DNA of 64,000 nucleotides. Origin: Janthinobacterium sp. TB1-E2. GTDB lineage: Bacteria; Pseudomonadota; Gammaproteobacteria; Burkholderiales; Burkholderiaceae_D. Location of the stretch: the NCBI RefSeq assembly GCF_036885605.1, contig NZ_CP142523.1, positions 4,030,001 through 4,094,000 of the forward strand, read 5' to 3'. Below, piece after piece: positions 1,844 to 4,886 of this stretch; positions within the stretch are counted from its first letter, which is position 1, and each line of letters starts with the position of its first letter. The notes under the pieces were generated by a model. That model saw only the letters and a list, made by a program, of their open reading frames with translations. It did not search any database and had not been told where the DNA came from. Position numbers and translations under genes: made by a program.

Positions 1844-2032
1844 CTACTGTCCATTGCAGGTTTGCTGGCAGGCGGACCGTTCGGCGTTGCACTCTGCTTG
1901 AGCGGTACCGCCAGCAATGCAAGCACGCCATTCGGCAGCACAGGCGCTAGCGCAGCTTGCAAAGGCTGGCGTCGCGGTCACCGCCAAACCAAGGCCGGAC
2001 GCAAAAAGAAATGCAGCGAGCTTTTTATTCAT
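1844..2032 (-). CDS. Small secreted six-cysteine peptide, predicted disulfide-zipped helical hairpin
   Basis: This 62-residue product starts at ATG 2032, preceded by GGAGAACACC as a good ribosome-binding site. Residues 1-25 form a clear Sec signal peptide ending ATPAFA. The mature 37 residues contain six cysteines with mirror-symmetric spacing CX3CX6CX9CX6CX3C. In a helix, positions i, i+4 and i+11 lie on one face, so the two halves could form antiparallel helices joined by three nested disulfides across a Gly-Gly turn. That arrangement is inference. I do not recognise the family and cannot assign a function. It was missed at full length because an in-frame upstream ATG extends the frame to 2104. 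Confidence 0.7.
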   Translation of the reverse strand: MNKKLAAFLFASGLGLAVTATPAFASCASACAAEWRACIAGGTAQAECNAERSACQQTCNGQ

Positions 2033-2829
2033 GGTGTTCTCCAAAGTTGGATGGCTGATGAATCCCTGCGCGCGCCATCGACTGGCGCAGGGCCACATAC
2101 ACAAGTATGTCGGGTGTCATCGCAAGCTGGCCGTGCGTCAGCGCGAAGTGAAAAGTCCTGCGGCCGCCAGCGGATACTGGAGCACCGCCAAATCAAAGCC
2201 GTTCATATAAACGCGGCGCGTCCCGGCCGATAGCCAGACCAGCATCCATAATAATGCCGCGCATCGCCGTCAATTTCCGATATGTTGAAAACATGCGAAA
2301 ATTCTCCTCGCGAAATCTGAGGTCATGATCAGCCCGCCATTATTAATTGTCAAGACAATTCAATTCATTTCGTACTATCGAATAATTTCTCGCGCAATGA
2401 AAAATACGGTCGCAATAAAATCGATAGAATGGGAAGGTTCGCTCAGTCATGCCGGCTGCTGCTGGCGCATGGGAGCGCGACGACAACGACTCACTGCCTG
2501 GCAGACGCAAGAAAACAATCTGCACGTGATACGAATATCATCACCATGGATATCAATAGAAACTTACTCTTTGTCATTATCGGCAGTTAAATTTTAATAA
2601 TAAAATTCACAGAATAAAACAAACTTAATAAAAATACATTCACTAAATTCCGGACGAATAAAATTCAGAGAAAAGAAAATGATAAAACACGAAGCACCAG
2701 ATATCGCACTCCGTGTTCAAGCAAATTGAATTCGACACAATGGAAGCGCCGCGCTGAATGCCTGCCAGTTTTTTATCCGGGCCGGGGAATCAGCACTTTA
2801 AGAATCAGCGCTCCTGCCACAGCCACTCC
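2033..2829. other. Gene-poor, partly AT-rich intergenic region
   Basis: No convincing gene is visible in about 800 bases. Roughly 2230-2760 is strikingly AT-rich compared with the surrounding GC-rich DNA and has no codon bias in any frame. A perfect 7-bp inverted repeat, AATTGTC-AA-GACAATT, lies at 2345-2360. The region may hold regulatory DNA, a small RNA or the remains of inserted DNA; the sequence alone does not decide. Confidence 0.5.
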
Positions 2830-2900: not shown

Positions 2901-4886
2901 ATGACTTCCTCCCCGCTTCCTCCCGATACATCCACCGACATCTCCGACAGCAGCGACGACAATAACGACGCTACCCTCGTCGCGGAACTGGGGGAGCTGG
3001 CCGAGCATATCCGCCTCGTCAAGATGGAAGGCCGCGTCTTCGTGCGCTTTTCCGGCGTAGTCAAGGCGGCCCATCTGGTGGTGCCGTATGCGCTGGTGCC
3101 GGCACAGGGCGTGCTGGCGCGACCGGCCAAGTGGCGCAAAATGGACCGCGAGGCCAAGCTGGCCCTTGTGCGCGAACGGGCCGGCGCGGCCGTGTTCGAG
3201 GAGCTGCGCCAGCATGTGATCGACTTCGTCGCCGATATCGCAGGCCTGAGCGAGGACGTGGACACGGACCCGATGGTTTTCCTGCACACCTTGGCCGACA
3301 TGCAGACGTCGGAGCCGGCGGGCATGGTGTTCGACCGCATCCGCCAGCGCTTCAATCACGCCATCGAGCGCCAGCAGGAAGAACAGCACGCGGCGCGCAC
3401 GCGCCAGAGCATCAACCTGGCCGAGTATCCGGCCTCGTTCGAGATGGCGCGCCGCCTGCCGCGCCGCTTCATCGCGCTGCTGGGTCCGACGAACTCCGGC
3501 AAGACGCACCGCGCCATGGAAGCGCTGGTCAAGGCAAAGAGCGGCATCTACCTGGCGCCCTTGCGATTGCTGGCCCTGGAAAACTACGAGCGCTTGCAGG
3601 AAGCCGCGCCGCACGGCAAACCGCTGGCAGTGAGCCTGATCACGGGCGAGGAACGCCGGGTCGTCGACGGCGCCACGCACGTGGCCAGCACGGTGGAAAT
3701 GCTGGACACGAAAACCGTCGTCGAAGTAGCCGTCATCGATGAAATCCAGATGCTGGCCGACCCTGATCGGGGTGCCGCGTGGACGGCGGCCGTGTGCGGC
3801 GCGCCGGCCCACACCGTGTATCTGGTAGGAGCCCCCGAAGCGCGGCGCGCGATCGAGGCGCTGGCCGAGCGCCTCGAATGCCCGCTGGAAGTGCACGTAT
3901 TAAAACGCATGGCGCCCTTGTCGATGGAGCCTACGGCCGTACGCAAGGTGCGCAACCTGCGCCGCGGCGACGCCGTCATCGCCTTTTCGCGCCGCGAAGT
4001 GCTGATGTGGCGCGACATGATCACGGAAACGGGGCTGTCGGTGGCCACCGTCTACGGCAACCTGTCGCCCGAAGTGCGGCGCGCGCAGGCGCAGCGCTTC
4101 CGCGACGGCACGGCCGATATCGTTGTCGGCACGGATGCGCTGGCGATGGGACTGAACATGCCGATCGCGCGCATCGTGATGACCACCTGCGTCAAATACA
4201 ATGGCCGCGAAGAGGAAGAGATTTCGGCCGCGCTGGCGCGCCAGATCGCCGGGCGCGCGGGCCGCTATGGCGTGCATGAAGAGGGACTCGTGGCCGGCTA
4301 CGACAACGAGACGCATGAAGTAATGCGCGCCCTGCTCAAGGAAAAACTGCACCCGCTGAACACGAGCGGCTTTGCCGTGGCGCCGTCGCTCGAGCATCTG
4401 CACCGCATTTCATCGGTGACGGGCGAACTGTCGCTGTCAAAACTGCTGCGCCGCTTCATCCACAATATCGACGTGCCGGACGGCTTCTTCTTCCCCCGCA
4501 TTACGGAAGACCAGAAGGAACGCGCCGTCTGGCTCGATACCCTGCCCCTGTCCGTGGCCGACAAGTTTACCTTGTCGCTGGTACCGATATCGAGCAAGGT
4601 GCCGTCCTTGCAAACGGCGTGGGAACACTGGGCGAAGAATCTGTCGCAGGGAAAAGTCAGCACCCTGCGCCAGCATGCGTACGGCGGAGGGACGCAGAAT
4701 CTGCAGCAGGTGGAAGACACTTGCCGCTACTACTCGGCGTATGCGTGGCTCAGCTACCGCCTGCCCGAATTCTTCCCCGATATCGACGTGGCGCAAAACC
4801 TGTCGCGCGATGCGTCGGAGCGGGTCGATTCCATCCTGCGCGCGCACAATGCGGCCTCGCGCGGACGCTCGAAGAAATTCAGGTAA
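2901..4886 (+). CDS. SUV3-like DExH RNA helicase
   Basis: The 661-residue protein carries GPTNSGKT near residue 195, the unusual Walker A motif typical of the SUV3 helicase family. A DEIQ Walker B follows near 278 and a motif VI with QIAGRAGRYG near 447. The N-terminal 190 residues are acidic then helical, and the C-terminal part resembles the SUV3 C-terminal region. Eukaryotic SUV3 unwinds RNA in the mitochondrial degradosome with a 3'-5' exonuclease; a role in RNA turnover here is inferred. It is flanked by a convergent Tae4-like gene ending 3 bases from its stop. Confidence 0.8.
   Translation: MTSSPLPPDTSTDISDSSDDNNDATLVAELGELAEHIRLVKMEGRVFVRFSGVVKAAHLVVPYALVPAQGVLARPAKWRKMDREAKLALVRERAGAAVFEELRQHVIDFVADIAGLSEDVDTDPMVFLHTLADMQTSEPAGMVFDRIRQRFNHAIERQQEEQHAARTRQSINLAEYPASFEMARRLPRRFIALLGPTNSGKTHRAMEALVKAKSGIYLAPLRLLALENYERLQEAAPHGKPLAVSLITGEERRVVDGATHVASTVEMLDTKTVVEVAVIDEIQMLADPDRGAAWTAAVCGAPAHTVYLVGAPEARRAIEALAERLECPLEVHVLKRMAPLSMEPTAVRKVRNLRRGDAVIAFSRREVLMWRDMITETGLSVATVYGNLSPEVRRAQAQRFRDGTADIVVGTDALAMGLNMPIARIVMTTCVKYNGREEEEISAALARQIAGRAGRYGVHEEGLVAGYDNETHEVMRALLKEKLHPLNTSGFAVAPSLEHLHRISSVTGELSLSKLLRRFIHNIDVPDGFFFPRITEDQKERAVWLDTLPLSVADKFTLSLVPISSKVPSLQTAWEHWAKNLSQGKVSTLRQHAYGGGTQNLQQVEDTCRYYSAYAWLSYRLPEFFPDIDVAQNLSRDASERVDSILRAHNAASRGRSKKFR

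Follow-up and report, generated by a model that had tools for sequence, protein, structure and literature searches.

What is the small peptide with six cysteines spaced identically from either end, encoded at positions 1844–2032 of a 64,000-nucleotide stretch of the Janthinobacterium sp. TB1-E2 genome (contig NZ_CP142523.1, positions 4,030,001 to 4,094,000; hereafter the window), how is it made and what might it be used for? We found that this exported peptide of an organism described as a soil bacterium belongs to a family whose genes often occur in tandem arrays, usually beside a gene for a glutaredoxin, and that the window gene itself adjoins a relic of such a glutaredoxin gene.

An exported six-cysteine peptide and the tandem arrays of its family

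The gene and its parts are the following.

1844–2032, minus strand: six-cysteine exported peptide gene (precursor of 62 amino acids, aa), from its open reading frame (ORF), homologues and selection
1958–2032, minus strand: Sec-type signal peptide, residues 1–25 (KK, hydrophobic core, AFA site), from sequence and alignment, by inspection
1847–1957, minus strand: mature peptide, 37 residues, cysteine gaps 3,6,9,6,3, with helices predicted at mature residues 2–15 and 20–36, from sequence and model
2039–2042, minus strand: ribosome-binding site GGAG, 6 bases before the ATG, by inspection

The reading frame extends from an ATG at 2032–2030 to a stop codon at 1846–1844, and a plus-strand reading of the same positions is meaningless. 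The precursor starts with the signal MNKKLAAFLFASGLGLAVTATPAFA, composed of KK, the hydrophobic core LAAFLFASGLGLAV and AFA with cleavage after A25 (AxA, by inspection), and continues with the mature part SCASACAAEWRACIAGGTAQAECNAERSACQQTCNGQ, which begins with S and has five charged residues. A preliminary description made from the letters alone had reported a palindromic CX3CX6CX9CX6CX3C pattern in 37 mature residues as well as an own ribosome-binding site and signal peptide, and all of this is borne out by the minus-strand frame. A mirror-symmetric placing of the four inner cysteines is expected by chance in 0.33% of cases (C1 and C6 fixed), but this figure has become secondary, since the spacing is conserved in homologues. 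We rejected a lipoprotein reading, as the lipobox [LVI][ASTVI][GAS]C stands at the first cysteine in 4/135 members and the window member has FASC.

The same description had proposed a homologue search with the cysteine pattern, and its worry that homologues with conserved cysteines might be absent has fallen away. Matches were found in 18 of 40 genomes of the genus at E <= 0.01, and eight of them (the window's own genome, G000, included) carry the window orthologue at 90–100% identity; in the seven others it lies at the same place and is 90–98% identical. All eight keep the frame, the six cysteines and a near-equal length (60–62 aa), and the ratio of nonsynonymous to synonymous substitution rates (dN/dS) is 0.36 in the mature non-cysteine part and 0.00 in the signal, where no amino acid changes. 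The window coding sequence is thus under purifying selection.

In its own genome (6.31 Mb, one contig) the window peptide retrieves a cluster at 1216597–1218342 with five peptide genes, all on one strand, and a glutaredoxin gene between the first and the second of them, and a further member lies at 780566. Near 753427 of the same genome there is also an exported four-cysteine peptide with gaps 6,8,6 (L011:7404-7616), which resembles variants without the outer cysteine pair found beside glutaredoxins (see below). A profile search at E <= 0.001 was positive in 33 of 245 genomes of the taxonomic family and in eight of its 44 genera, and the members come mostly from Janthinobacterium, Pseudoduganella and Massilia (named loci: Janthinobacterium, 13; Pseudoduganella violacea; Massilia sp. 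BJB1822), genera known to interact with fungi and with amphibian skin. The largest array comprises 21 pattern-positive ORFs in one 20-kb locus of G258, followed by eight in G176 and five in G040. Searches at 1e-4 in the order (3/399 genomes) and in the class (3/321), both counts including G000, give lower bounds because no more than the top 15 or 19 candidates of a first look were scored in each genome, and a tblastn search of a plasmid collection gave no match. Outside the order, G923 of the same class has three short exported peptides with a similar six-cysteine spacing (L096, L098 and L099).

For the sequence comparison we collected 139 distinct ORFs by a signal expression and at least four cysteines; their signals look Sec-type by inspection. 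The exact pattern CX3CX6CX7-13CX6CX3C is present in 107 of them and 22 more differ solely by a CX2C first step (2,6,n,6,3); among the remainder at least one, from L030, looks spurious. The 135 distinct six-cysteine members fall into 61 groups at 60% non-cysteine identity, and M1 and the six cysteines are the only invariant positions in an alignment of 30 sequences. Between groups the mature non-cysteine residues are 11% identical, against 6.3% expected at random from composition, and the signal region is 45% identical; the commonest preferences beyond the cysteines are an aromatic residue or Leu at C2+4 and Tyr at C4+4 (65/135). Within the 15 groups of at least three sequences dN/dS is 0.02–0.63 for the mature part and 0–0.73 for the signal. 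Paralogues therefore differ almost completely from one another, yet each is conserved after its formation, and positive selection within these 15 orthologue groups is unsupported.

Linkage to a glutaredoxin gene and its relic in the window

The partner protein of the arrays is a glutaredoxin (Pfam PF00462, E 3.3e-14, 53.3 bits against a cut-off of 22.9) with CGYC as its CxxC motif. In the listed sequences its N-terminus shows, by inspection, a K/R-rich start and then a hydrophobic stretch, so that the protein should be anchored in the inner membrane with its domain predicted to face the periplasm by the positive-inside rule. A search of the 245 genomes gave 36 matches at 1e-20, 29 of them in peptide-positive genomes. 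We counted 38 full-length anchored copies and scanned 36 over about 1.5 kb to the left and right (somewhat further for L193-L195): an exported peptide with symmetric cysteines stands beside 32 of the 36, always on the same strand (32/32), with the nearest gap being 34–529 bases. One of the two unscanned copies lies in the G258 array (L071) and the other beside a peptide in L082. Two further families of the order show the linkage as well (G497 and G362; G478), which makes three in all. As a control, no such peptide was seen beside any of 13 loci that match the glutaredoxin domain alone, and of 28 tiles taken from the window and from three further loci two were positive, one with the window peptide itself and one with a peptide already retrieved by homology. 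Across the 245 genomes 29 have both partners, four the peptide only, seven the glutaredoxin only and 205 neither (Fisher p 8e-27, overstated because related genomes are not independent), and three of the seven glutaredoxin-only genomes do carry a symmetric-cysteine peptide beside the glutaredoxin (G195 and G235 with six cysteines, G263 with four). In 274 genomes of the class, G000 apart, the full-length anchored glutaredoxin gave just domain-level matches.

At the window locus the linkage is to a relic rather than to an intact gene, and this relic, like the tandem arrays and the glutaredoxin partner, had escaped the preliminary description. The surroundings of the peptide gene are made up as follows.

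1770–2858, no strand assigned: islet of about 1.09 kb with the peptide gene on it, from genome comparison within the genus
2064–2092, minus strand: conserved leader hairpin CCCTGCGC...GCGCAGGG, from the alignment of eight orthologous loci
2095–2110, minus strand: palindrome ACATAC-N4-GTATGT, about 78 bases before the ATG and also preceding the G206 peptide, from sequence comparison
2141–2300, minus strand: relic of a membrane-anchored glutaredoxin gene (anchor 2300–2196, C-terminal tail 2224–2141), from sequence matches
2348–2353, minus strand: candidate -35 box TTGACA, conserved in the eight aligned loci, by inspection

The relic lies upstream of the peptide gene; its two pieces are mutually out of frame and the catalytic CxxC domain is gone. 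Its anchor part is 54% identical to the protein of G206 (E 9e-9), a genome that holds an intact glutaredoxin-peptide pair, and on the DNA level the window matches this pair over a segment that begins at the 3' end of the glutaredoxin gene, crosses the palindrome and reaches into the peptide gene (119/163 bases, E 1e-19). The relic is seen at all eight orthologous loci, with internal stops in several, and together with the DNA match this means that the window peptide has its origin in an ordinary pair of glutaredoxin and peptide genes. Judged from these sequences, the enzyme gene of the pair has decayed and the peptide gene has stayed under selection, which makes the window peptide an orphaned member.

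The islet is flanked by a methyltransferase gene (883–1767) and a Suv3-type helicase gene (2901–4886); it is present in eight genomes of the genus, and in ten others the flanks are joined with about 42 bp between them. Ribosome-binding site and leader are conserved across the orthologous loci while the relic upstream drifts. The palindrome precedes 8 of the 139 members, namely the peptide of G206 and the seven distinct sequences of the window type, and might serve as an operator or belong to an RNA switch; Rfam gave nothing above the gathering score at the window locus. Upstream of the peptide, the minus strand of 2033–2345 reads as a long leader in which two stem-loops are conserved.

Predicted fold and comparison with known hairpins

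A confident AlphaFold model of the mature chain alone has two helices (residues 2–15 and 20–36; mean pLDDT 92.7, pTM 0.60), and the model of the full precursor has them at 27–40 and 45–59 (mean pLDDT 69.9), in line with the two helices suggested before. All six cysteines fall inside the predicted helices, and the window peptide probably folds as a two-helix hairpin stapled by three disulfides. The earlier idea of three nested disulfides is consistent with the four-cysteine relatives found beside glutaredoxins, the pairing itself being predicted: either the outer pair is lost (gaps 6,6,6, twice in G247, and 6,8,6 in G478) or the inner one (3,14,3 in G251 and 3,13,3 in G263), and because cysteines are lost in pairs these relatives lend comparative support to the nested arrangement. 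Fold searches gave no match at E <= 0.001 (best for the full-precursor model E 2.7, Z 3.6); that they listed no alpha-hairpinin or copper-storage structures excludes nothing. The YehD receptor-binding domain, retrieved with the mature model (E 6.9; Z 4.6, rmsd 1.5 over 36 residues), was set aside as a common two-helix arrangement.

The preliminary description had also invoked the alpha-hairpinin principle, which holds for the fold logic but not for the published six-cysteine motif or for sequence similarity. In the excerpts available of PMC11591084, plant alpha-hairpinins are small secreted helix-loop-helix peptides with mirror-symmetric cysteines and inter-helix disulfides, in which at times the cysteines alone are conserved, and the six-cysteine motif is CX3CX3CX4-20CX3CX3C. 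The family shares the helix-loop-helix (predicted here) and the mirror symmetry with the 4C and 6C types such as EcAMP1 and Nigellin-1.1. However, the window peptide (3,6,9,6,3) and 107 of the 139 collected ORFs (3,6,n,6,3) do not have the 6C motif, and the family is bacterial and acidic, has a glutaredoxin partner and gave no sequence match. The four-cysteine peptides beside the G251 and G263 glutaredoxins do show an alpha-hairpinin-like CX3CX13-14CX3C. The Hairpin Loop Peptides (HLPs) of fungi and insects, described in 2026, likewise combine six mirror-symmetric cysteines with a signal peptide; the part of that paper at hand (PMC13357843) describes two helices, three predicted nested disulfides and hydrophobic mature chains of about 62–64 aa with 0–2 charged residues and a GP start, and states that BLAST found none in bacteria. 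In contrast, the mature chain of our family has about 37 aa and is charged, and the window peptide starts with S. Gallocin A, a class IIb bacteriocin, resembles the family in the stapled hairpin (predicted for the latter) and in the adjoining gene for a thioredoxin-fold protein (reduced to a relic at the window): according to the excerpts of PMC10100652 its peptides are disulfide-stapled helical hairpins and the neighbouring BlpT, with a thioredoxin domain, is needed for activity. The same excerpts describe a two-peptide Gram-positive system with one disulfide per peptide, a dedicated ABC exporter and an immunity peptide; gallocin A has a double-glycine leader, whereas the family has signals that look Sec-type, three predicted disulfides and no immunity gene seen among the identified neighbours.

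The window peptide has no Pfam match, and 47 members compared with Pfam gave scattered sub-threshold matches with a best E of 0.013, none above chance. NCBIfam NF043072 (E 4.9e-5, 9/47 members) and NF033803 (9/47) were taken for similarity of signal peptides rather than of mature parts. PADLOC found none of its systems, sequence searches of the PDB gave nothing real (chance matches to cannabinoid receptor 2, E 0.9–1.1), and searches of the open-access literature brought up nothing on this bacterial peptide family. Disulfide-nested helical hairpins are already known as a kind; within the libraries, PDB and open-access literature searched, the bacterial family with its arrays and its glutaredoxin partner appears to be new.

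Possible roles of the peptides, and atypical members

As a working model we propose that the Sec-exported peptide would fold outside the cytoplasm into an antiparallel two-helix hairpin with nested disulfides C1-C6, C2-C5 and C3-C4, which might be formed or reshuffled by the inner-membrane-anchored, periplasm-facing glutaredoxin. The family is strongly diversified, with a fixed signal peptide and cysteine frame carrying an almost free surface, and the finished peptides may bind a target, either a protein or a surface, within the envelope or beyond the cell, most likely being used as antagonistic effectors or inhibitors against other organisms. The window orphan, having lost its own glutaredoxin, would have to rely on the glutaredoxin of the main array of this genome or on the general Dsb enzymes of the cell. 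According to work cited in PMC12453122, GrxC of E. coli, once exported, supports the formation of disulfides in the periplasm. Given this and the gallocin A precedent, we prefer a reading in which the glutaredoxin assists the folding of effector or inhibitor peptides that act outwards. An action of the enzyme on the peptides seems likely to us, the action as outward-directed effectors is a tentative suggestion, and to the account as a whole, exported hairpins matured by a glutaredoxin and serving as effectors or inhibitors, we would give an even chance.

Several observations speak against this account. No neighbouring peptide was detected at four glutaredoxin loci (G010, G252, G244 and G263:C10), even if the peptide of G244 lies about 2.4 kb off and G263:C10 has one with irregular cysteines, and for the G923 peptides no such glutaredoxin is present in the one locus examined (L122, 15 kb). 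The dN/dS values within orthologue groups (0.02–0.63) give no hint, at the level tested, that an arms race is under way, and the net charge (mean -1.9) is negative in 121 of 135 members and positive in nine, unlike in membrane-active antimicrobials. Beside the arrays, where flanking ORFs were identified in part, there is no dedicated outer-membrane exporter and no obvious immunity gene. Acidic charge, purifying selection and the lack of such genes therefore make an ordinary cationic antimicrobial unlikely.

The periplasm itself could be the place of action, with hairpins held in the envelope that each block a particular competitor enzyme (a protease or a peptidoglycan or lipid hydrolase effector) and arrays that form a shelf of protective inhibitors. 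This explanation stays close because of the charge, the lack of a recognised immunity gene and the absence of recent positive selection, and it also fits the Sec signal without a dedicated exporter, the acidic surfaces, the missing toxin-immunity layout and the 11% identity between paralogue groups whose orthologues are nevertheless conserved. Some plant hairpinins have inhibitor activity. No effector or target is linked to the peptides, however, and we regard it as possible but unlikely. Small periplasmic redox or Cu(I)/Zn carriers with the glutaredoxin as reductase would explain the tight linkage, and copper storage proteins have CX3C motifs on their helices. The Cys-lined helices of these proteins, as given in excerpts of PMC5171941 and PMC5519932, resemble those predicted for the family, but they belong to four-helix bundles with many more cysteines, whereas the family peptide is modelled as a two-helix monomer and has no Pfam or sequence match to them. 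In a carrier, mature surfaces close to random and the many different paralogues found in one genome would be odd, mirror symmetry and paired cysteine loss fit disulfides, and there are no metal genes among the Pfam-identified neighbours and no Pfam match above chance in the 47 members, so that we consider such a thiol-disulfide or metal device improbable.

A decaying, functionless gene or a chance ORF, left over from a lost glutaredoxin unit, would account for the relic and for the absence of the islet from ten other genomes of the genus; yet the frame, length and six cysteines kept in eight genomes, the dN/dS of the window group and the leader and ribosome-binding site conserved beside a drifting relic leave this very improbable. 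Still harder to defend is the precursor of a modified peptide, a Cys-Xaa-Xaa-Xaa target of radical-SAM enzymes (TIGR04117, Syntroph_Cxxx): the profile similarity is weak (E 0.15 for the window peptide, best 0.035 among the 47 members), the window peptide scores 12.2 bits against a cut-off of 50, no radical SAM enzyme is found among the Pfam-identified part of the neighbours, and a Sec signal is present.

Returning to glutaredoxin-matured effector hairpins, conotoxin-like toxins also combine a conserved signal and cysteine frame with very variable mature residues and dedicated disulfide catalysis. This is an analogy and not homology, and the family orthologues are under purifying selection. It is conceivable, though rather doubtful, that Burkholderiales possess a conotoxin-like arsenal built on one exported hairpin scaffold that three nested disulfides staple, with arrays of more than 20 genes, surfaces varied almost at will and a private, membrane-anchored glutaredoxin that forms the disulfides, of which the window gene would be a dispersed orphan with an enzyme fossil. 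In the family there is a bacterial counterpart of HLP-type hairpins that shows no sequence homology to them as far as tested, varies far more and is arranged in large arrays, and the linked enzyme points to how such hairpins are made. If our reading is right, nature offers here a library of mini-scaffolds locked by disulfides, along with a new role for an exported glutaredoxin and a number of candidate effectors or inhibitors.

Some loci depart from the common layout. The tandem peptide genes of the G258 array (L071) are interspersed with genes for a LysR regulator, a GDSL lipase, an M48 peptidase and two anchored glutaredoxins. An exported protein of G262 (L069:1501-1956, also L125), without a Pfam match, seemingly joins a knottin-like stretch CX6CX5CCX4CX8C (by eye) to a six-cysteine hairpin domain, and a member from G206 (L086:2177-2476) has the normal six-cysteine frame followed by an extra cysteine-rich tail, CQEECCNPGSC.
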